A DNA stretch of 64,000 bases from Pedobacter sp. L105. Its GTDB lineage: Bacteria; Bacteroidota; Bacteroidia; Sphingobacteriales; Sphingobacteriaceae. The notes under the pieces were generated by a model. It was given only the letters and a program-made list of their open reading frames with translations, did no database searches and was not told the origin of the DNA. The stretch covers positions 434,001 to 498,000 of the forward strand of contig NZ_LMUP01000014.1 in NCBI RefSeq assembly GCF_009765875.1, in the 5' to 3' direction. This document shows, one piece after another, positions 2,551-59,702 of the stretch; the stretch's first letter is position 1, and the number at the start of each line of letters is the position of its first letter. Made by a program: the position numbers and the translations under genes.

Positions 2551-2706
2551 TAGGTAGTGTTTCTAAGGAAACACTTTAATAGGGAATGCCGGTGTAAATC
2601 CGGAACAGTCTCCGCTGCTGTAAACCTCATTTAAAAAACCGCTGTGATGCCACTTTCTGCAAAGAGGGGAAGGTTGTGGTTAGAGGAAGTCAGAAGACCT
2701 GCCTTA
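2551..2706 (+). ncRNA. Cobalamin riboswitch
   Basis: The leader contains the landmarks of the B12 aptamer in order: a hairpin AGTGTTTC/GAAACACT (2556-2575), the GGGAATGCCGGTG block (2582-2594), AAATCCGGAACAGTCTCC and GCTGCTGTAA, a GCCACT...GGGAAGG segment, and the 3' B12 box GTCAGAAGACCTGCC (2689-2703). It sits between the ATPase gene and the BtuF-like gene and should repress the downstream transport and assembly genes when adenosylcobalamin binds. No strong U-tract terminator is visible before the ATG at 2741, so control is probably at translation initiation. Confidence 0.93.
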
Positions 2707-2740
2707 TAATTGTTTAATTACGCTTTCGGAAGAAAGGCCA

Positions 2741-3913
2741 ATGATGATGATGAAAAAAATAAACTCTTCTCCGGCAGGAATACTTTCCTGTTTACTGGTT
2801 ATGCTGTTTTGTACTGTTTCCTGTAAACGTACTCCGGCAGCTAAACAACACCGTGCAGCAAAAACAGGCAGTGCAACTATCAAATACGCCAAAGGTTTTG
2901 GCATCGATTATTACGATCATTACAAGCTTGTCAGCATTTACAGCGGCAGTGGTACTGCTACAGATACTACCCGATATGTGCTGGTTCCCCGGGGGACCAA
3001 AGCTCCCGAAGGTTACAACAAAGCACAGCTGATAGAAATCCCTGTCAAAAGCCTCGTTGCTACTTCTTCAATGCATGTGGCCCTTGCTGAATTTGCAGGT
3101 AGTGCTGATGCCATTACCGGCTTAGGTAGTTTTCAATATATCACCTCGGCTATAGTCAGGAAAAACATCGCCGCAGGCAAAATCAAAGAAGTAGGAACGG
3201 AGGGTACCATGAACAACGAAATGCTGATCACCATGAAACCGGGATTAGTGATGGTAACTGGAAATCCGGCTGCAAAATTCAGTGCTTATGCCACCTTAAC
3301 CGGGGCGGGGGTGCCTGTGATGCTCAACTCAGAATGGCTGGAAACTACCCCGCTAGGGCGTGCCGAATGGGTAAAACTAATGGCTGCGCTGATGGACAAA
3401 GAAGATTCGGTAAATGCGAAATTTAAACGCATAGAAACCGCTTATACCCGTTTGGCAGCAATGGGACAGAAAGCGGTAAGCAAGCCGTCTGTGGTTAGCG
3501 GAATGCCTTACAAAGGAACCTGGTATGTGCCTGATGGCGATAGTTATATGGTGCAATTTTTTAAAGATGCCGGTGCCGCTTATCAGTGGGCAAATACCAA
3601 AGAAAAGGGGAGCTTAGCCCTCAATTTCGAGACCGTGGCCCCTGTAGCATTAAAGGCCGACTTTTGGCTTAACCTGGGCGAGGTGAATACCAAAAAAGAC
3701 GTACAGGCCATTGATGTTCGCTATGCAGATTTTAAGCCCTTTAAAAATGGCAACCTGTTTAACAATAATGGAAAAGTAAACAGCCTGGGGGCAAACGACT
3801 TTTGGGAATCTGGTGCGGTTAACCCGGATGTGGTTCTGGCCGATCTGATCTTTATCCTCCATCCCGATCTGCTGCCCAACCATCACCTGGTTTATTATAA
3901 AAAACTAAACTAA
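2741..3913 (+). CDS. Cobalamin/cobinamide ABC transporter substrate-binding lipoprotein (BtuF-like)
   Basis: 390 residues with a lipoprotein signal: lysines, a hydrophobic run, and the lipobox TVSC at about residue 30. The rest is a TroA/FecB-type periplasmic binding fold: a first lobe with MHVALAEFAG, a bridging helix around the NEMLITMKPGLVMV segment, and a second lobe ending in NPDVVLADL. It lies directly downstream of a cobalamin riboswitch and upstream of a FecCD permease and an ATPase, which points to a B12 or cobinamide ligand rather than a siderophore. The first codons are four ATGs in a row, and any of them may initiate. A purine-rich GGAAGAAAGG lies 4-13 nt upstream. Confidence 0.85.
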   Translation: MMMMKKINSSPAGILSCLLVMLFCTVSCKRTPAAKQHRAAKTGSATIKYAKGFGIDYYDHYKLVSIYSGSGTATDTTRYVLVPRGTKAPEGYNKAQLIEIPVKSLVATSSMHVALAEFAGSADAITGLGSFQYITSAIVRKNIAAGKIKEVGTEGTMNNEMLITMKPGLVMVTGNPAAKFSAYATLTGAGVPVMLNSEWLETTPLGRAEWVKLMAALMDKEDSVNAKFKRIETAYTRLAAMGQKAVSKPSVVSGMPYKGTWYVPDGDSYMVQFFKDAGAAYQWANTKEKGSLALNFETVAPVALKADFWLNLGEVNTKKDVQAIDVRYADFKPFKNGNLFNNNGKVNSLGANDFWESGAVNPDVVLADLIFILHPDLLPNHHLVYYKKLN

Positions 3914-3923
3914 TTCTACGGCA

Positions 3924-4952
3924 TTGAACAAACTCAAAGTTTCCCTGTTACTTTTCCTGTTGCTGGCCGCATTTCTACTGGATGTGGCCCTGGGATCAGT
4001 ACATATTCCTGTAAAGGAAGTGGTAAGGGTATTGTTTACGCCACATTCAGATAACGCCACCTGGACTTATATCATTGAAAAGATCAGGCTACCCAAAGCA
4101 TTAACAGCTATCATTGTGGGCTGCGGACTTTCAGTAAGCGGCCTGCAAATGCAAACGCTGTTCAGAAATCCGCTGGCAGACCCTTCAGTACTGGGTATTA
4201 CCGCCGGAGCAAGCCTTGGCGTAGCACTGGTAATGCTTTCTGCGGGAAGTATCACCACTATCTATACCATCCAGGCACTGGGTATTTCTGGGAGTTGGTT
4301 AATTATCCTGGCTGCTTCTTTGGGTGCAGCCTTAGTAATGGTGCTCATTGTATCCCTCTCTTCTTCCTTAAAAGACAATGTAGTTGTGCTTATTGTAGGT
4401 GTAATGATCGGTAATATTACCCTGTCTGTCATAAGTATCTGGCAATACTTTAGTGCCCCGGAACTAATTAAGGATTACCTGATATGGACTTTCGGTTCGC
4501 TGGGCGGCGTAACAGGCAACCAGCTGCTTATCCTGGCTGTGGTTGTGCTGGCAGGATTGCTACTTTCATTTTTGTCGTCCAAATTGCTGGATGCTTTGTT
4601 ACTAGGCGACAATTACGCCCGCAGTATGGGTTTAACCGTCAAGCGTGCCCGCCTCCTCATTATCGGCAGCACCAGTATTCTTGCCGGGGGCATCACTGCC
4701 TTTTGCGGGCCAATAGGCTTTATCGGTATTGCCGTGCCGCATCTGGCACGTGCTATCTTTCAAACTTCCAGCCACCGGATCTTAATTCCGGCCTGTTGCC
4801 TCATCGGTACATTACTTATGCTCTGCTGTGATATTATTGCACAATTACCCGGAAGCCAGACCGTATTGCCTATTAACGTGATCACTGCGCTGATTGGTTC
4901 GCCAGTGGTGATCTGGATCATTGCGGGGCCTAATAAGTTAAGGGGGTTCTGA
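3924..4952 (+). CDS. FecCD/BtuC-family ABC transporter permease
   Basis: 342 residues, about ten hydrophobic segments, with the BtuC/FecCD signatures GCGLSVSGLQMQTLFRNPLADPSVLG (split here by its conserved glycines and the NPLADP core) and GFIGIAVPHLAR. An in-frame stop at 3906-3908 leaves the TTG at 3924 as the best start; no ATG is available near the N-terminus. It follows the binding lipoprotein after 10 nt and overlaps the ATPase by one base. It forms the membrane pore of the B12/cobinamide importer in the inner membrane. Confidence 0.9.
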   Translation: MNKLKVSLLLFLLLAAFLLDVALGSVHIPVKEVVRVLFTPHSDNATWTYIIEKIRLPKALTAIIVGCGLSVSGLQMQTLFRNPLADPSVLGITAGASLGVALVMLSAGSITTIYTIQALGISGSWLIILAASLGAALVMVLIVSLSSSLKDNVVVLIVGVMIGNITLSVISIWQYFSAPELIKDYLIWTFGSLGGVTGNQLLILAVVVLAGLLLSFLSSKLLDALLLGDNYARSMGLTVKRARLLIIGSTSILAGGITAFCGPIGFIGIAVPHLARAIFQTSSHRILIPACCLIGTLLMLCCDIIAQLPGSQTVLPINVITALIGSPVVIWIIAGPNKLRGF

Positions 4953-5980
4953 TGGCCGGAAAAACGCCCATATTACATACCGATAACCTTGTTGTTGGTT
5001 ACCAGGCAGGAAAAAAAAATGCCAAGGGTGTGGCCGGCACCTTAAACCTCAACCTTTATGCTGGTGAGCTGGTTTGTTTGCTGGGGCCTAATGGATCTGG
5101 TAAATCTACCTTATTACGGACAATTGCAGGCTTACAACCTTCGCTGCAGGGGACTGTTAAATTGGACGGTGAAGAACTTACACAGCTCAAACCTACGCAA
5201 ATAGCCAAAAAAATCAGCCTTGTCCTTACAGATAATGTTCGTTCCGGTAACCTGGATGTATATGCTTTAATTTCCCTGGGGCGTTACCCGCATTCCGGAT
5301 GGTTAGGTACATTAAGTGAGGAGGATAAGCAAGCCATTGATTATGCCATCAAAGTGACCGGGACAAGTGAATTTCTGAACAGGAAGATGGATAGCCTTAG
5401 TGACGGCGAATGTCAGAAAGTAATGCTGGCCCGCGCGATTGCACAGGACACTCCGTTGATCATGCTGGATGAACCTACAGCTCATCTTGACCTGCCTAGC
5501 CGTATCCAGCTAATGCGGTTGCTCCACCAGCTGGCGAAGGAAACAGGGAAGGCTATTTTGATTTCTACCCATGAGCTCGACCTGGCCTTACAGTCGGCCG
5601 ATTTTATCTGGCTCATGAGCAGCGGCAGCCATTTCGCTGCCGGACTACCTGAAGAACTGATCTTAAACGGGGCTTTTCAACAGGCCTTTGATAAAGACGG
5701 AATTGAGTTTGATATCGCTACCGGCACTTTTCCATTACATCAATCCCTGGCAAAAGCTATCACTGTAGAAGGAACCGGTGCAGCTGCTTTCTGGACCAAA
5801 AAAGCACTGAACAGAAAGGGTTATCGTATTTTAGCTGATCAGGAGCAAAGCATCATCATTTCTACCGAAACTGGTGAAACTTTATGGATCGTAATGCAAA
5901 ATAATGAATCTGGCATTTGTCATTCCATCACTGAATTGCTACTGCTGTTGCAGGATTCATCGAATAAAAATTTAGAATAA
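4952..5980 (+). CDS. ABC transporter ATP-binding protein of the B12/cobinamide importer (BtuD-like)
   Basis: 342 residues. Walker A GPNGSGKS at 45-52, signature loop LSDGE at 149-153 (LSGGQ/LSGGE is usual), Walker B LIMLDEP at 169-175 and the switch His at 207 (STHELD). The region after about residue 250 is an extra C-terminal segment of roughly 90 residues that the core ATPase does not need; it is predicted here only from length. The start ATG overlaps the permease stop by one base. It powers uptake by the adjacent BtuC/BtuF-like proteins. FecE-type siderophore ATPases are the nearest alternative, and the operon argues against that. Confidence 0.88.
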   Translation: MAGKTPILHTDNLVVGYQAGKKNAKGVAGTLNLNLYAGELVCLLGPNGSGKSTLLRTIAGLQPSLQGTVKLDGEELTQLKPTQIAKKISLVLTDNVRSGNLDVYALISLGRYPHSGWLGTLSEEDKQAIDYAIKVTGTSEFLNRKMDSLSDGECQKVMLARAIAQDTPLIMLDEPTAHLDLPSRIQLMRLLHQLAKETGKAILISTHELDLALQSADFIWLMSSGSHFAAGLPEELILNGAFQQAFDKDGIEFDIATGTFPLHQSLAKAITVEGTGAAAFWTKKALNRKGYRILADQEQSIIISTETGETLWIVMQNNESGICHSITELLLLLQDSSNKNLE

Positions 5981-5994
5981 AAAATAGCTACAAA

Positions 5995-6588
5995 ATGAAG
6001 ATATATACCAAAAAAGGCGACAAAGGGACAACCGGACTTTTCGGGGGCAAACGTGTAGATAAAGATAATGTACGTGTAGAATGTATTGGCACGCTGGATG
6101 AAGTAAATTCTACTATCGGTATGCTTAGGGTAAAACTGGGCAATACACATGAATGGCAACCCAATCTGCATAAGATCCAGAAAGATATGATGGACATGAT
6201 GTCTCACCTTGCGCGTCCTTCTGATACCACTAAGATCAATACCAATCCTATGCCGGAAGACGGTCCTGTGTTCTGCGAGACCTGGATCGATGAACTGGAA
6301 AGTGCCATGACCCACCCTTCAGATTATTTTATTCTGCCGGGAGGAAATGAAATCTCTGCTTTATGCCATATGGTAAGAACGCAAATGAGAAGAGGTGAAC
6401 GCAGGTTAACCAGCCTGATCAAAACTGATGAAGTAAATGAAACCATTCCGGCTTATATCAACCGACTTTCTGACCTGTTCTTTACCTTATCACGTGCAGA
6501 AATGGACAAGGCGGGCGTAGCAGAAGAGAAATGGCAGCTTTTCCTTTACAAGCGTTACAAAACTACAGACCCGGCAACTAAACCTTAA
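5995..6588 (+). CDS. Cob(I)yrinic acid a,c-diamide adenosyltransferase, PduO type
   Basis: 197 residues. The N-terminus KIYTKKGDKGTTGLFGG is the ATP-binding P-loop-like signature of PduO/MMAB adenosyltransferases, and RRGERRL near residue 140 is the conserved arginine motif. The enzyme transfers the 5'-deoxyadenosyl group of ATP to reduced cobalamin or cobinamide in the cytoplasm. The length fits the family. It follows the importer genes after 14 nt, consistent with adenosylating imported corrinoid before CobU acts. Confidence 0.94.
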   Translation: MKIYTKKGDKGTTGLFGGKRVDKDNVRVECIGTLDEVNSTIGMLRVKLGNTHEWQPNLHKIQKDMMDMMSHLARPSDTTKINTNPMPEDGPVFCETWIDELESAMTHPSDYFILPGGNEISALCHMVRTQMRRGERRLTSLIKTDEVNETIPAYINRLSDLFFTLSRAEMDKAGVAEEKWQLFLYKRYKTTDPATKP

Positions 6589-47536: not shown

Positions 47537-48165
47537 ATGAATATCAATACCTTTAACGCCTTTAAAAGTCGTGATTACAGGCTTTACTTTGGCGGCCAGG
47601 CAGTTTCACTGATCGGTACCTGGATGCAGAAAACTGCCGTAAGCTAGGTAGTGTATTCAGAAACACATTCTAAATTTATGCTTGGCCTCACGGTTTTTGC
47701 AAGTTTGTTCCCCTCCTTTATTTTTTCGTTTCTGGGTGGGGTAGTTTCCGACCGTTAAAATAAGTTTATGGTACTGCTGTTAACCCAGTTTGCTTCCATG
47801 GCACAGGCCGTTATCTTAACTGTCCTGCCGGGCAAAAATTGTACTGTTTTCCCATACCACTTTATTATCCCCTGGCATTGGTATTTGCTACCCTATCCGG
47901 TTTTGGAATGATGGAGCAGGTTACCGCCAGCAGTACACTGATCCAGACTACAGTAGATCCCGCAATGCGCGGCAGAGTGATCAGTTTTTATGCGATGGCG
48001 ATTTTTGGGATGATCCCTATCGGAAGTCTATTGGTAGGTTTTGTTGCCACCTGGGTTGGAACGCCAGATACGGTTTTAACAGAGGGGATCATTACGCTGG
48101 TAATTGGTGCTTTTTTATTGTTCCGGGTTAATGCCAATGCTTTAGCCGCTGTAAAAAACAGTTAA
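47537..48165 (+). pseudogene. Decayed MFS_3-type transporter gene
   Basis: Reads MNINTFNAFKSRDYRLYFGG..GTWMQKTAVS, then TAG at 47645-47647 (Trp expected), and DR then TAA at 47756-47758 in the loop GGVVSDR. After about 47840 a different frame encodes a C-terminal half (QTTVDPAMRGRVISFYAMAIFGMIPIGSLLVG). A relative in this window (13498-14730) is 410 codons, whereas this locus is 629 nt, so about 600 nt are missing and there are two stops and a frame change. Confidence 0.9.
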
Positions 48166-48296: not shown

Positions 48297-49046
48297 ATGA
48301 AAAAATTAATAATTTTTGACCTTGACGGTACGCTGGCCGAGAGCAAGGCAAGTCTGGATGACGAAATGGCCGGCATTTTAAGCCGCCTGCTTGAAGTAGC
48401 TAAAGTGGCTATTATATCAGGGGGCGACTGGCCGCAATTCGAAAAACAGGTATTAGCACACCTGCCTCAAAACCAGGTACTCGACAATTTGTCTATCCTC
48501 CCCACCTGCGGCACCAAGTATTACCAATATCACCAGGGATGGAAACAACTCTATGCCGAGAATTTTACGGCCGATGAAAGGGATAAGATCATCAAAAATC
48601 TAAATAGCGCCATTGAGACATCGGGCTTTAAACCAGAGAAAACCTGGGGAAAGCAGATCGACGACCGCGGCAGCCAGATCACTTTTTCAGGACTAGGACA
48701 AGAAGCGCCACTTAGCGCTAAGAAGGACTGGGACCCCGATTTCACCAAACGTAAAAAGATACAGGAGCTGCTCGCAGAACCCTTAAAGGGTTTTTCTGTG
48801 AACATTGGCGGCGCCACTTCCATTGATATTACTAAAACAGGGATTGATAAGGCCTATGGCATCCATAAGCTTCAGCAAACGCTGGATATCGCTATCGCTG
48901 AAATGATCTTTATCGGCGATGCCTTGTTTGAAGGTGGAAATGATCACCCTGCAAGAACAACCGGCGTAGTTTGTATCCAGGTCCGTGATCCAGAAGAAAC
49001 CAAAAGGGTAGTGGAAGGGATCATTGCCTGCCTAACTAAAACGTAG
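48297..49046 (+). CDS. HAD-IIB family phosphatase (phosphomannomutase/sucrose-phosphatase-like)
   Basis: 249 residues. The FDLDGTLAES motif at 6-15 contains the nucleophile and acid/base aspartates; GGDWPQFEKQ, then the late IFIGDALFEGGNDHPA with the metal-binding Asp. The cap is of the C2B type, as in sugar-phosphate phosphatases and eukaryotic-type phosphomannomutases. It is the first gene of an operon with GH130, acetate kinase and phosphoketolase, suggesting sugar-phosphate handling. Confidence 0.88.
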   Translation: MKKLIIFDLDGTLAESKASLDDEMAGILSRLLEVAKVAIISGGDWPQFEKQVLAHLPQNQVLDNLSILPTCGTKYYQYHQGWKQLYAENFTADERDKIIKNLNSAIETSGFKPEKTWGKQIDDRGSQITFSGLGQEAPLSAKKDWDPDFTKRKKIQELLAEPLKGFSVNIGGATSIDITKTGIDKAYGIHKLQQTLDIAIAEMIFIGDALFEGGNDHPARTTGVVCIQVRDPEETKRVVEGIIACLTKT

Positions 49047-49056
49047 ACCAAAATAT

Positions 49057-50139
49057 ATGAACGAATTTAAATTACACCGCCTGGGAATCGTTATGGAACC
49101 TGAACCTGGTAATGCCAACGAAACTGAAGGGGTTTTAAATCCGGCAGCGGTAAGAGGGCCCGACGGAGGGCTTTATCTTTTTCCGCGTTTGGTGGCCAAA
49201 GGCAATTATTCCCGTATCGGCATTGCCAAAGTACGTTTTAATGAAAATGGCGACCCCATTGGGGTAGACCGTCTGGGTATTGCACTGGAACCCGAAGCCG
49301 ATTACGAAAAACGTCTGGATGGCGGTGGCGGATGCGAAGACCCCCGGGTTACGTATTCGGAACCGTTAAAGCAGTATATGATGACCTATACTGCGTTTTC
49401 CCCAGAGGGGCCACGTATTGCCCTGGCGCAATCAAAAGATTTGATCCACTGGGAGCGTTTGGGCCTGGCCGAATATTCCAATTATGAAGATATTCAGTTT
49501 AATCATATTGATAATAAGGATGCCTGTTTGTTTCCATTTGAGATCATGAGCCCAAGCGGACACCCTTCAATAGCGATGCTGCACCGGCCTTTGTTTCCTG
49601 GTACCAGGCCGGAGGAAACCGTGCGGTATCCCATTGACAGGGAAATCAGGGAGCATCATGAATGTATCTGGATTTCCTACAGCCATTACAAAGCAGAGCA
49701 ACCTATCGATTGTCACCTACCCAAATTTGTTTCCAACCATCCACTGGCAATACCCAAACAGCCCTGGGAAAAATTGAAGATAGGCGCAGGCACGCCACCC
49801 ATATTGACCAAACATGGATGGCTTTTTTTGTATCACGGGGTCAGCGAAACGACATCGCCGGGGATGGACAAACGTCAGCTGAGTTATTCGGCAGGAGTAA
49901 TGGTTTTGGATAAGGATGATCCCCATAAAATTTTGTACCGTTCGCCAGAACCTATTTTGTCGCCAGATCTTCCCGAAGAAAGAGTAGGCGTGATTGCTGA
50001 TGTAGTATTTCCAACAGGAATAGATTGCCGGCATGACCTGGGCAAACCGGGTGTTTTTGATGTGTATTATGGAATGGCAGATAACCGTATTGGTGTGGCG
50101 CGACTTGAGATTCCAGATGTTTTACCCACTGTTTTTTAA
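49057..50139 (+). CDS. GH130-like glycoside phosphorylase/hydrolase
   Basis: 360 residues of the five-bladed beta-propeller type: NPAAVRGPDGGLYLFPR, GGGGCEDPRV (the catalytic Asp lies in the GCEDPR motif of GH130) and GAGTPPILTKHGWLFLYHG. Family members phosphorolyse beta-mannosides; specificity cannot be read here. It starts 10 nt after the HAD gene. The reading of a shared role in mannose or mannosyl-sugar turnover feeding the phosphoketolase genes is inference. Confidence 0.85.
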   Translation: MNEFKLHRLGIVMEPEPGNANETEGVLNPAAVRGPDGGLYLFPRLVAKGNYSRIGIAKVRFNENGDPIGVDRLGIALEPEADYEKRLDGGGGCEDPRVTYSEPLKQYMMTYTAFSPEGPRIALAQSKDLIHWERLGLAEYSNYEDIQFNHIDNKDACLFPFEIMSPSGHPSIAMLHRPLFPGTRPEETVRYPIDREIREHHECIWISYSHYKAEQPIDCHLPKFVSNHPLAIPKQPWEKLKIGAGTPPILTKHGWLFLYHGVSETTSPGMDKRQLSYSAGVMVLDKDDPHKILYRSPEPILSPDLPEERVGVIADVVFPTGIDCRHDLGKPGVFDVYYGMADNRIGVARLEIPDVLPTVF

Positions 50140-50230: not shown

Positions 50231-51412
50231 ATGAAGAAGGAACAAAATACCTATATCCTCAGTTTGAATGGCGGTTCTTCCAGCTTAAAGTTTACCTTAT
50301 ACCGCACTGATCCCTTTAAATTAAAGTTATCAGGAACCGTAAGCCGCATAGGTGGTAAACAAGGGGAACTCGAAATTAAAGACAGGGATGGGCATGTCCT
50401 GGAAAAAAGGGACAAGGAATATCCGTCGATGGAAACGGCAGCAACAGAAGTAGCCGAATGGCTAAAGGCAGGAGATTACCTGTTGAAAGGTATTGGCCAC
50501 CGTTTAGTACAGGGAGGTCCTGAACATCGGCAGCCAGAGCTGATCACAGCTCAATTGTTAGCTGAACTAAATGGATTTATTTACCTGGCACCAAATCACT
50601 TGCCTGATGAAATCAGGACAATAGAAATCTTTCAGCAGGCTTTTACAAACATCCCGCAAGTAGCCTGTTTTGATACTTCCTTTCACAAGGATATGCCTTC
50701 TCACAGCAAGGATTATCCACTTCCTCCACAGTATAAAGCTAAAGGTTTAATCCGTTATGGATTCCACGGCCTGTCTTATGAATACATCATGCATGCACTT
50801 GGAGAAAGAATCCCAAGGATTGCCCGCGAAAAGATCATTATCGCCCACCTTGGCAATGGTGCCAGTATGGCTGCCGTTAAGAATGGTACTTGTGTGGATA
50901 CCACTATGGGAGTAAGCCCTACGGGTGGTTTGGTGATGGGCACCCGCAGTGGCGACCTGGACCCGGAGGTAGTGTTGTTTTTGATGAAACAAGGCACGTT
51001 AAGCGTTGAAGAACTGGACGATATACTGAGTAAGCAGTCCGGTTTAAAGGCTATCGCGGGAATCAGCGATATACAGGAGCTATTGAAGGCCGAAAAGAAC
51101 AATGCACAGGCGAAAGAAGCGATTACTGTATTTTGTTATTCTGCAAGGAAGTTTATCGCTGCCATGGCTGCAGCTATGGGCGGGGTAGACCGGCTGGTAT
51201 TTACTGGCGGTATCGGTGAAAATTCTGCTGTCATCCGTCAGCGGATCTGTAAAGATTTGGGTTTCCTGGGTATGGACCTCCACGAAAAAAAGAAAGAAGA
51301 GTCAAGGGACGAAATTTCCCATAAAAAAAGCAGGGTGATCATTAATGTGCAGCAGACCAATGAAGAATGGATGATTGCTAAACATACGCTCCAACTCATG
51401 AATAAGAAATAA
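50231..51412 (+). CDS. ackA: Acetate kinase
   Basis: 393 residues, the usual length. The ASKHA motifs are NGGSSSLKFTLY (about 12-23), IIAHLGNGASMAAV, STGGLVMGTRSGDLDPEV and FTGGIGENS. It converts acetyl phosphate and ADP to acetate and ATP in the cytoplasm. It lies 15 nt upstream of the phosphoketolase gene, which would supply acetyl phosphate. Confidence 0.96.
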   Translation: MKKEQNTYILSLNGGSSSLKFTLYRTDPFKLKLSGTVSRIGGKQGELEIKDRDGHVLEKRDKEYPSMETAATEVAEWLKAGDYLLKGIGHRLVQGGPEHRQPELITAQLLAELNGFIYLAPNHLPDEIRTIEIFQQAFTNIPQVACFDTSFHKDMPSHSKDYPLPPQYKAKGLIRYGFHGLSYEYIMHALGERIPRIAREKIIIAHLGNGASMAAVKNGTCVDTTMGVSPTGGLVMGTRSGDLDPEVVLFLMKQGTLSVEELDDILSKQSGLKAIAGISDIQELLKAEKNNAQAKEAITVFCYSARKFIAAMAAAMGGVDRLVFTGGIGENSAVIRQRICKDLGFLGMDLHEKKKEESRDEISHKKSRVIINVQQTNEEWMIAKHTLQLMNKK

Positions 51413-51427
51413 TTAAGACCGATACTT

Positions 51428-53782
51428 ATGAATTTACTTTCAGAAAAAACCATTAAAAACATGCATGCCTACTGGCAGGCTGCCAATTATCTTGCCGCAG
51501 GACAGATCTATCTTCAGGACAACCCTCTGTTAAAGGAACCATTGAAACCGGAGCATATTAAGCCCAGATTATTAGGTCATTGGGGAACTTCTCCCGGATT
51601 AAACTTAATCTACCTGCACCTGAACCGGCTGATTAAAGATACAGGAGCAGATATTCTGTATATCTGCGGTCCCGGACATGGTGCCCCGGCAATTCTTGCA
51701 CATACTTACCTCGAAGGAACTTATTCTGAGATCTATCCCGCAGTTGATGAGTCTGAAGCAGGAATGAAAACCCTGTTCCGCCAGTTTTCGACGCCCAGAG
51801 GTATTCCAAGTCATGTTAGTGCTAACACTCCCGGGTCTATTCATGAAGGTGGTGAACTGGGTTATTCTATGTCGCATGCCTTTGGTGCCGTATTCGATAA
51901 CCCTGATCTGATCGCTGCCTGTGTAATTGGCGACGGAGAAGCCGAGACAGGCCCGCTTGCAGGTAGCTGGACTTCAGTAGCTTTTCTTAACCCGATAAGA
52001 GATGGTGCTGTGCTGCCTATCCTTCACTTAAACGGATATAAAATCTCAGGGCCTACTGTATTGGCCAGGATGACCGATGAATCGTTAACACAACTCTTTA
52101 CCGGCCATGGTTATGAAGTGTTTTTTGTAGAAGGTGATGTGCCGATGGATGTGCACCAGCTAATGGCAGAGAAGCTCGATCTGGTATACAGCAAAATAAA
52201 AAAAATACAACAGGATGCACGGGAGTCTGGTGTGATCCACGGCATTTTCTGGCCGATGATCATTCTAAGGACCCCTAAGGGATGGACTGGCCCTAAAGAA
52301 TGGGATGGCGTACCTATCGAAGGTACTTTCCGTGCCCACCAGGTTCCTCTGATGGGCGCAAAGGAAGATCCTGCAAAGCTAAAGGTAGTGGAAGACTGGA
52401 TGCGCAGTTATCATCCGGAGTTATTATTTGATGAAAAAGGTAAATTGATACCAGAACTTGCCGCTTTGGCACCACAGGGTGATAAACGAATGAGTGCTTA
52501 ACCTTATGCCAATGGTGGCCTCTTGTTAAAAGACCTGGTAATGCCGGATTTTAAACAATATGCACTGGAAGTTAAATCGCCAGGTGTTGCCGAGGCAGAG
52601 AGTACCCGTAATCTGGGAGGCTTTCTTCGTGATATTTTTAAGTTGAATGAAGAAACGAAGAATTTCAGGCTGTTCTGCCCGGATGAAACAAATTCTAACC
52701 GCCTGGAAGCAGTATTTGAAACTACCAACCGTGTTTTTATGGAAAGAATACTGGCTAAGGACGAGAAGCTTGCCTCTGATGGGCGGGTAATGGAAGTGCT
52801 GAGTGAACACCTTTGCGAGGGATGGCTGGAAGGTTATCTGCTGACCGGAAGACATGGGATTTTCCCTTGTTATGAGGCTTTTGTAACGATTGTGGATTCC
52901 ATGTTCAGCCAGTACGCCAAATGGATTAAAACCTCTCGAGAACTGCCATGGCGCAAACCGGTGGCTTCGCTGAATTATTTGCTCACCTCTCACGTTTGGA
53001 GACAGGATAATAATGGATACAGCCATCAGGGGCCAGGTTTTATTGATACAGTAGCCAATAAAAAAAGTACGGTGATCCGTATCTATTTACCACCTGATGC
53101 CAATACTTTATTGTCGGTGATGGACCATTGCCTGCGCAGTAAGGATTATGTGAATGTAGTGATTGCAGGTAAACAACCCGAACTGCAATGGCTAACCATG
53201 GATGAAGCAATTGAGCATTGTGCAAAAGGAGCGTCCGACTGGAAGTGGGCAGGGAATGAAGATGGTGAGGCACCGGATGTGATCCTGGGCTGCGCCGGAG
53301 ACGTGCCTACCCTGGAAACAGTAGCGGCTGCCTGGCTGCTGAAAGAACACCTGCCAGAGCTGAAAGTCCGTCTGGTAAATGTCGTAGACCTGATGTCTTT
53401 ATCGCCTGTGGCCTATCACCCGCATGGAATGAGCGAAGAGCTGTTTGATTCGCTGTTCACCACAACAGCCCCTGTGATTTTTGCTTTTCATGGTTATGTG
53501 CGCATTGTTCACGACCTGATCCACGGCCGTCCTGATCCCGCACGATTCCATGTGAGGGGATTTATGGAAGAAGGAACTACCACTACACCTTTTGATATGG
53601 TAGTGGTAAACCAGATGAGCCGTTTTCACCTGGCTATGGAAGCCGTAAAAAGAGTTCCGCTTTTACATCAGAATGCTGACGCATTTATCAGCTATTGTGA
53701 GTCTAAACTGGAAGAACATGTAACCTATATCCGCGCTAATCTTGATGATATGCCAGAAGTGAAGAATTGGAAATGGAGTTAA
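51428..53782 (+). pseudogene. xfp: Xylulose-5-phosphate/fructose-6-phosphate phosphoketolase gene with one in-frame TAA
   Basis: The total frame is 784 codons, a normal phosphoketolase length, and frame and similarity are continuous. The thiamine diphosphate motif [14 protein letters not shown] is at about 169-182, and the C-terminal half has the Xfp pattern (LTSHVWRQDNNGYSHQGPGF; HGRPDPARFHVRGF). The only fault is TAA at 52499-52501, in ...DKRMSA-stop-PYANGGLLLKD, where relatives usually have Asn before Pro-His/Tyr-Ala-Asn-Gly-Gly. As written, products are a 357-residue N-terminal part and, if reinitiated (TTG 52523 or ATG 52541), a C-terminal part. Readthrough, a recent mutation or a base error cannot be told apart here. 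Confidence 0.88.
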
Positions 53783-55315: not shown

Positions 55316-55630
55316 ATGTCAGTATATAGTTTAAAAAAAGTAGAAACCATTCATGCGTTAACTATTGATATTGTTGATGAAGAAAATGTCATCCAGCAAA
55401 ACGATCAGACCAGACAGTTTTTAAACCTGACCTGGGTTTGGGACGGTACCAGGGATAAGGCAGATGAAAAAAGAAAAGTTATTGATGAAATCCAGATAGA
55501 TCTGGCCTATGTACAAGAAACCTTTGGTGCAGAACTGGCCAATCAGGTGTTAACGCTCATCTATAGAAAAATAGATATGGTGTATTCTTTATTATTCAAT
55601 TTAAAAAGAAGTAATATGGCAACAGCGTGA
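55316..55630 (+). CDS. Conserved-looking hypothetical protein
   Basis: 104 residues, acidic and soluble, no signal peptide: VYSLKKVETIHALTIDIVDEENVI, then WVWDGTRDKADEKRKVIDEIQIDLAYVQETFG, looks like a helical regulator or adaptor. I recognise no family. The coding pattern and the length support a real gene. The dihydroxyacetone kinase gene starts 118 nt downstream. Confidence 0.6.
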   Translation: MSVYSLKKVETIHALTIDIVDEENVIQQNDQTRQFLNLTWVWDGTRDKADEKRKVIDEIQIDLAYVQETFGAELANQVLTLIYRKIDMVYSLLFNLKRSNMATA

Positions 55631-55748
55631 TTTGTTTGAAGATTTTGTGCCGGCTGAAAAGAAATAAAACAAAACAAATCGAAAGAAATCTCAATACAAA
55701 TGAAACATCATCCCTCATTCTTTTGTTATCATCATAAAAAGATAAGGT

Positions 55749-57374
55749 ATGAAATTTTTCATCAATGAGACCGACCAAATTGTAAATGAAGCGATAAATG
55801 GACTGTTAACCAACCCAAAATTAGCCAAGTTAGATAGCTTTCCGGAAGTGCGCGTAGTGATACGCAAGGACTGGGATAAATCAAAAGTCGCTATCATTTC
55901 TGGCGGGGGATCCGGGCATGAACCTGCCCATGCTGGTTTTGTAGGTAAGGGGATGCTTACTGCTGCGATTTGCGGTGATATATTTGCGTCGCCTACTGTA
56001 GATGCCGTATTATCTGCTATTTTAGCTGCTACAGGACCTAAAGGCTGTTTATTAATTATAAAGAATTATACAGGAGACCGTTTAAATTTCGGTCTGGCTG
56101 CCGAACAGGCGCGTGCCTTAGGCCTTGATGTAAAGACTGTAACGGTAGATGACGATATTGCTCTTGGAAACGATGTCAAAAAAAGAGGATTAGCCGGGAC
56201 GTTATTTGTCCATAAGATCGCCGGACAACTGGCCGAAGAAGGAAAATCACTAGATGAAATTGCAGTAGCTGCACAAAAGGTAATCGACAGCACGGCTTCC
56301 ATAGGGCTTTCCCTGACCGAAGTTTTTCACCTCGGACAGGAAACCGTTTCCCGTTTAACAGATCAACAGGTAGAACTGGGGCTGGGAATCCACGGTGAGC
56401 CTGGAATAGAAGTTGTAGCCTATGCGCCGGCAGATCAGCTGATGGCATTGGCTATCGATAAGCTGGAAGCAAATTTGCCGGGTAAAAACGGAAGGTATGC
56501 CATGATCTTTAATAATATGGGGAGCGTTAGCCCTATAGAAATGAGCCTGCTGGTTAACTCTTTTAGTAAAACCAAACTGGCTGAACAAATAGATTATATG
56601 ATCGGCCCCGGAGCCCTGATGTCTTCCATCAATATGAGCGGCTTTTCCGTTTCCGTTTTGCTGCTGAACGAAGAATTTGAAAAAGCGTTACTGGCACCTG
56701 CAGAACCTTCTTCATGGCAGGTACAGTCATTTAAAAAACCAGCTACAATCAGCAGTCCTAAACTTCCTGAAACGATGCCTTACGAAGCTTCAGCCAATAG
56801 TGGGGTACAAAAGCTTATTGAGGAAGTGGCTGGCCTATTGGTAGCCATCGAAAAAGAGATCAATGGCCTTGACGCCAAAGTAGGTGATGGCGATGCCGGA
56901 TCTACCTTTGCTTTAGCTGGCAAACGCCTTCAGGCAGTAGTGGCTAAACTTCCGTTAAATGATACCGGTAAATTACTGCTCACACTAGGCCGTATCCTGG
57001 CCAGGGAAGCAGGGGGCTCAAGTGGTGTCTTGTTGTCTATCCTGTTTACGGCTGCCGGAAATGCTTATTCAAAAAATCCTGACCTGGGTAAAGCCTTAGT
57101 GGAAGGATTGCAAAAGGTAAAAGATTATGGCGGGGCTGAAAAAGGCGACAGAACAATGATTGATGCACTGCAACCTGCTTTTGAATCGCTGGCAAAAAAA
57201 GAATCGCTGGCAATTGCTGCACAACAGGCAAGGGATGGGGCCGATAATACCAAAAATATTATCAATACTAAGTTCGGACGTTCGTCTTATTTATCTGAGG
57301 CGGTATTAAGGAATATTCCAGACCCCGGTGCTGAAGTTATTGCCAGGGTTTTTGAGAAAATTGCTTCCCTGTAA
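55749..57374 (+). CDS. Fused dihydroxyacetone kinase (DhaK-DhaL)
   Basis: 541 residues. The DhaK half (1-330) has GGGSGHEPAH (52-61) and His215 in GIHGEPGIE, which binds dihydroxyacetone as a hemiaminal. The DhaL half (about 345-541) has AKVGDGDAGSTF with the Mg-ATP-binding aspartates. Such fused kinases use ATP directly, not the PTS. It phosphorylates dihydroxyacetone (or glyceraldehyde) to feed glycolysis. It is followed by a terminator at 57405. Confidence 0.93.
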   Translation: MKFFINETDQIVNEAINGLLTNPKLAKLDSFPEVRVVIRKDWDKSKVAIISGGGSGHEPAHAGFVGKGMLTAAICGDIFASPTVDAVLSAILAATGPKGCLLIIKNYTGDRLNFGLAAEQARALGLDVKTVTVDDDIALGNDVKKRGLAGTLFVHKIAGQLAEEGKSLDEIAVAAQKVIDSTASIGLSLTEVFHLGQETVSRLTDQQVELGLGIHGEPGIEVVAYAPADQLMALAIDKLEANLPGKNGRYAMIFNNMGSVSPIEMSLLVNSFSKTKLAEQIDYMIGPGALMSSINMSGFSVSVLLLNEEFEKALLAPAEPSSWQVQSFKKPATISSPKLPETMPYEASANSGVQKLIEEVAGLLVAIEKEINGLDAKVGDGDAGSTFALAGKRLQAVVAKLPLNDTGKLLLTLGRILAREAGGSSGVLLSILFTAAGNAYSKNPDLGKALVEGLQKVKDYGGAEKGDRTMIDALQPAFESLAKKESLAIAAQQARDGADNTKNIINTKFGRSSYLSEAVLRNIPDPGAEVIARVFEKIASL

Positions 57375-57670: not shown

Positions 57671-57712
57671 AAGGGGGTAGCTGAAAACCCTAATTAGAGT
57701 AGGCCCCAAATT
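57671..57712 (+). promoter_or_regulatory. Conserved leader motif, copy A
   Basis: The 5' leader of the first repeat-protein gene contains GGGGGTAGCTGAAAA (57673-57687), then CCCTAA and AGAGTAGGC (57696-57704), 22 nt before the ATG. The same blocks in the same order and almost the same spacing precede the paralogous gene at 59718. GGGG could pair with CCCC at 57704-57707. Read as a shared regulatory leader or structured RNA; no known class recognised. Confidence 0.55.
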
Positions 57713-59663: not shown

Positions 59664-59702
59664 CAGGGGGAAGCTGAAAAACCTTTAAAGAGTAGGCGCA
59701 AA
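59664..59702 (+). promoter_or_regulatory. Conserved leader motif, copy B
   Basis: GGGGGAAGCTGAAAA (59666-59680), ACCTTTAA, AGAGTAGGC (59690-59698), 19 nt before the ATG of the second repeat-protein gene. It matches copy A at 57673-57704 with a small indel. It lies 15 nt after the stop of the HTTM gene, so the second small gene can have its own leader rather than only readthrough transcription. Confidence 0.55.

Follow-up and report, generated by a model that had tools for sequence, protein, structure and literature searches.

In this study, we analyzed a 64,000-nucleotide stretch of Pedobacter sp. L105 DNA (hereafter, the window), in which an acetate kinase gene is directly followed by a phosphoketolase (XFP) gene whose frame of 784 codons contains only one internal stop. 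The features of this locus are as follows:

50231-51412, + strand: acetate kinase gene ackA, intact, directly upstream of the phosphoketolase gene
51428-52501, + strand: phosphoketolase part 1 (XFP_N domain), ATG start, 357 aa, terminating at the premature TAA
52499-52501, + strand: in-frame TAA at codon 358, where the close clade has sense codons, mostly Leu or Ser
52502-53782, + strand: phosphoketolase part 2 in the same frame (XFP and XFP_C domains), with the normal stop at 53780-53782
52523 (TTG) and 52541 (ATG), + strand: first candidate in-frame starts after the TAA, read from the sequence

Several other features were observed in the window. A HAD/phosphomannomutase-like gene and a GH130 mannoside phosphorylase-like gene (48297-50139) are located directly before ackA-xfp, and these four genes perhaps form a single gene group. 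No HAD-like or GH130-like match was present in the fetched flanks of the nearest two genus relatives (loci L154 and L155); a relative of the HAD gene was observed near the xfp remnant of another genus member (locus L158, genome G101). An MFS transporter remnant lies at 47537-48165 (+ strand), with two in-frame stops early and then a frame jump; much of the gene is missing, and its last 107 amino acids match MFS_1/MFS_3 just under the curated cut-offs. This remnant is an older pseudogene, approximately 3 kb upstream of the phosphoketolase gene. Rfam models matched a cobalamin riboswitch at 2535-2720 and DUF805b RNA motifs at 57671-57705 and 59664-59698.

The two halves of the phosphoketolase frame, scanned separately on either side of the TAA, gave strong Pfam matches: part 1 to XFP_N (E = 4.7e-164), and part 2 to XFP (E = 2.4e-87) and XFP_C (E = 5.4e-87). 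All three domains were thus present, in order, collinear and in one frame. The XFP_N match covered residues 5-356 (profile positions 3-354 of 364) and the XFP match began at residue 395, which placed the TAA within the last ten positions of the XFP_N model, before XFP. An earlier note on this DNA had put the stop in the interdomain part of the protein, which is about right, and ahead of the PYANGG segment, which is correct. With the NCBIfam model NF003619, part 1 matched model positions 14-367 and part 2 positions 369-795; the halves flank exactly one model position, which indicates that one codon was replaced by a stop and that nothing was inserted or deleted. A read-through search of the genome, with X at the stop, returned a single match spanning residues 1-784 and containing '1 TAA'. 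The claims of the earlier note that frame and family similarity run unbroken on both sides of the TAA, and that the rest of the 784 codons is intact, are therefore borne out, the TAA being the one lesion. An uninterrupted phosphoketolase frame of about 790 codons is absent here, as the frame is broken at codon 358, and the premature stop removes both of the domains that lie downstream of it. A chance effect of open reading frames was ruled out, because both halves were high-scoring, collinear and in frame.

The source genome is 6.39 Mb in 26 contigs, with 99.98% completeness and 0.62% contamination. A genome-wide search yielded only this one XFP match, so that a second functional phosphoketolase copy, which we considered, was not found. 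All 101 TonB-plug matches lay in frames of at least 625 codons with no stop within the match (100,887 codons in total), which bounded the assembly error rate, but loosely.

To place codon 358 in the context of related phosphoketolases, we used a list of 111 loci, in which some loci recur between collections and the focal one is present twice, and an alignment of 104 distinct rows, 27 of which formed a close clade (more than 70% identity to the focal protein). The nearest phosphoketolases were approximately 80-81% identical in protein. Within the 27 clade rows, position 358 was occupied by Leu (16), Ser (8), Ile (2) or Asn (1), and Asn was found in 71 rows of the whole aligned set. Certain clade codons at this position are one substitution away from TAA, and no stop was present at position 358 in the 109 loci other than the two focal copies. 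In a leave-one-out analysis of 97 near-full-length rows (up to 96 relatives), the focal protein departed from the consensus at one of the 223 columns with conservation of 97% or more and at none of the 170 with 99% or more; the departures across all rows ranged from 0 to 5 and from 0 to 2, respectively. Arg at codon 124, where Gly is present in 97 of 100 rows, was considered as a second lesion and dropped: three other rows also depart there, and the leave-one-out conservation of this column is below 97%, so Arg124 was not counted as damage.

We then examined the selection on the gene and the age of the stop. The tree comprised 26 sequences, ten rows (eight duplicates and two partial) having been left out beforehand. 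No acceleration of the focal lineage appeared in root-to-tip distances or in pN and pS compared pairwise for each half, and the mean pN/pS of the focal gene was 0.177, versus 0.170-0.195 in 22 others. Among 16 relative-rate comparisons the focal lineage was significantly faster in none; two tests were significant (chi-square 6.08 and 5.19), and in both the sister was faster. These rate tests are weak for a recent loss: protein identity to the nearest relatives is no higher than about 80-81%, and saturation has been reached at synonymous sites (pS approximately 0.8). With regard to relaxed selection, the lack of acceleration is expected under a very recent loss and equally under no loss. A count of potential stops was also made. 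Of the 6,993 single-base changes possible in the aligned gene, 290 (4.1%) create a stop, giving a neutral expectation of about 97 further stops per substitution per site; the presence of zero further stops limits any neutral phase to no more than about 0.03 substitutions per site (95%). The TAA is either very young or an artefact, and the rest of the gene, judging from its sequence, looks like a gene that was selected until very recently.

Phosphoketolase occurrence was patchy among relatives. In three overlapping samples, XFP matches were detected in 34 of 145 genus genomes (the focal genome included), 83 of 399 family genomes and 64 of 395 phylum genomes, with at most two candidate places scored per genome in the family and phylum samples. 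The genus had 28 near-full-length, stop-free copies in 27 genomes; three genomes carried XFP pieces on separate contigs (G056, G100 and G118), and five carried remnants or short XFP matches (G016, G101, G054, G062 and G074). The family sample added G294, G429 and G310, each with a fragment, that of G310 containing three stops. Copies with apparently one frameshift, called where the match fell into two collinear pieces whose frames differ, were seen in G077 (a second copy, near residue 140), G362 (near 375) and G438 (near 245), and a two-frame copy with a break near residue 695 was seen in G452, outside the family. Alignments were made for eight broken or partial XFP loci. No other full-length XFP with an internal stop occurred among the matching genus, family and phylum genomes; in the phylum sample the focal gene was the sole such copy.

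Two of the broken loci deserve description. G077, a single 6.15 Mb contig, has an intact xfp elsewhere and a second ackA-xfp pair (L152, approximately 2652-6177), in which each gene is in two pieces in different frames. In G362 (L150, near 5116-5212), the XFP frameshift lies near residue 375, close to a domain boundary, and the second ORF starts at GTG with a 13-base overlap with the first. G362 is a Mucilaginibacter MAG, and thus its frameshift may be an error; decay or MAG error is probably the cause. Assembly errors may account for some of the broken relatives in general. A search for a close sister species with DNA 55316-57374, which would miss any sister lacking that stretch, matched 15 of 144 genus genomes, and the best of the others reached 75% over the gene.

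The metabolic surroundings of the gene were analyzed at the genome level. The genome has one acetate kinase gene. Of the 25 relatives used, 18 had an ackA beside xfp, within the same fetched stretch. Relatives of AckA were approximately 45-57% identical to the focal protein, versus approximately 71-81% for the adjacent XFP, and AckA was also less conserved than XFP in comparisons between relatives. The sole PTA_PTB match was the C-terminal part of an 801-residue protein with malic and Malic_M domains. The top NCBIfam match of this protein was an NADP-dependent malic enzyme model, with a score below the cut-off (809.9 versus 1178), and its scores against pta models were also under their cut-offs (255.5 versus 311.2 and 263 versus 418). 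The PTA domain of this malic-enzyme-type protein is presumably inactive, as in other such enzymes. PduL (PF06130) had no match in the genome. If the stop is real, ackA would, on the basis of gene content, lose its only recognisable source of acetyl phosphate, and the cut in acetyl phosphate supply to the acetate kinase proposed in the earlier note holds in this sense.

Taken together, it is quite probable that a single, very recent nonsense mutation inactivated the only phosphoketolase gene of this genome. The mutation would be real in the organism, and translation would stop after the first domain to give a 357-residue fragment without XFP and XFP_C, which is presumably inactive. The organism might tolerate such a loss because it can do without the phosphoketolase shunt, in agreement with the scattered distribution of the gene across the genus. 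The earlier note had left four options (very recent loss, split into two subunits, stop readthrough and base error). Very recent loss was best supported among these, given that there is no further lesion and no acceleration and that breakage recurs in the genus and family, whereas the split and the readthrough found little support: no other surveyed full-length XFP has an internal stop, neither chain would contain the near-invariant NGG (residues 362-364), and no stop anticodon occurs in the 52 tRNAs found.

An assembly base error, with the gene intact in the organism, is the foremost alternative and appears unlikely, although several observations fit it. The TAA is known from one assembly, one substituted base would suffice, and the lack of other damage in the gene together with the open ackA would fit an assembly error equally well. 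On the other hand, the longest run of equal bases at the site is two, which sets aside the usual type of error, an indel in a homopolymer, and the assembly appears clean by its completeness, its contamination and its open TonB-plug frames. A readthrough of the stop, or a suppressor tRNA, that yields full-length enzyme seems highly improbable. The downstream frame is indeed well preserved; however, of the three stops TAA generally allows the least readthrough, and the anticodons TTA, CTA and TCA were absent from the 52 tRNA places found with RF00005 among the 150 of 446 first-look candidates that were scored. ARAGORN assigned ordinary anticodons to all 52 places and none for UAA, UAG or UGA, and none of the 109 examined loci of relatives carries a stop at position 358.

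It also seems very doubtful, if slightly less so than readthrough, that the locus encodes a two-chain phosphoketolase, with chain 1 ending at residue 357 and chain 2 restarted shortly after. The position of the TAA near the end of XFP_N and ahead of XFP would suit such an arrangement, as would the candidate starts TTG (residue 366) and ATG (residue 372), and the G362 frameshift near residue 375 with its overlapping second ORF is reminiscent of it. A start at either codon, however, would leave N362, G363 and G364 out of both chains; these residues are kept in 101, 101 and 102 of 102 rows, respectively, and codons 359-365 contain no ATG, GTG or TTG. Moreover, Met372 is present in the rows of 41 relatives (one of 27 in the clade, the others having Leu), and a residue so common in relatives is not a dedicated start. 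The surveys of the genus, family and phylum samples also stand against it, in that the focal gene has no full-length counterpart with an internal stop and the remaining copies with one frameshift are interrupted at other places (near residues 140, 245 and 695), and in G362 itself the first start of the second ORF is a GTG about 28 residues past the break. A Bacteroidota-type promoter (consensus TTTG-n18..22-TAnnTTTG) before the second half was considered and rejected, as the window contained two matches versus 3.31 expected, both elsewhere. There is a precedent in the split-gene transketolase of Carboxydothermus hydrogenoformans, in which the cut lies between PP and Pyr domains and combining the chains gives an active enzyme (PMC7661550). 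A two-chain phosphoketolase is therefore not far-fetched in principle, but in the present data it is favoured by little more than where the TAA lies and by the frameshift of G362. If a two-chain restart were true for the focal gene, it would represent a thiamine-diphosphate enzyme caught at an early stage of natural fission close to a domain boundary.

If the nonsense mutation is real, the locus shows gene loss at its very first step, with the shunt switched off and the partner acetate kinase still intact. The likeliest interpretation is ordinary gene loss in a group where phosphoketolase broke several times; the gene would be one more case of breakage where phosphoketolase is patchy and repeatedly broken, and otherwise ordinary.

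Finally, we compared the locus with known systems. The focal protein has the same three domains as known phosphoketolase (XFP/XPK; PF09364, PF03894 and PF09363; NF003619), in the same order and frame, and is approximately 80% identical over its length to the phosphoketolase of Pedobacter cryoconitis. Its full-length relatives each form an open single chain, whereas the focal gene differs from them by the TAA at codon 358. The C. hydrogenoformans transketolase (PMC7661550) is likewise a thiamine-diphosphate enzyme broken between domains 1 and 2; it is encoded by two genes whose chains combine actively, whereas no conserved split was found for the focal XFP. With regard to bacterial nonsense pseudogenes, nothing was found to distinguish the focal gene from them, and it shares with them both a single premature stop and the repeated loss of the gene in relatives.
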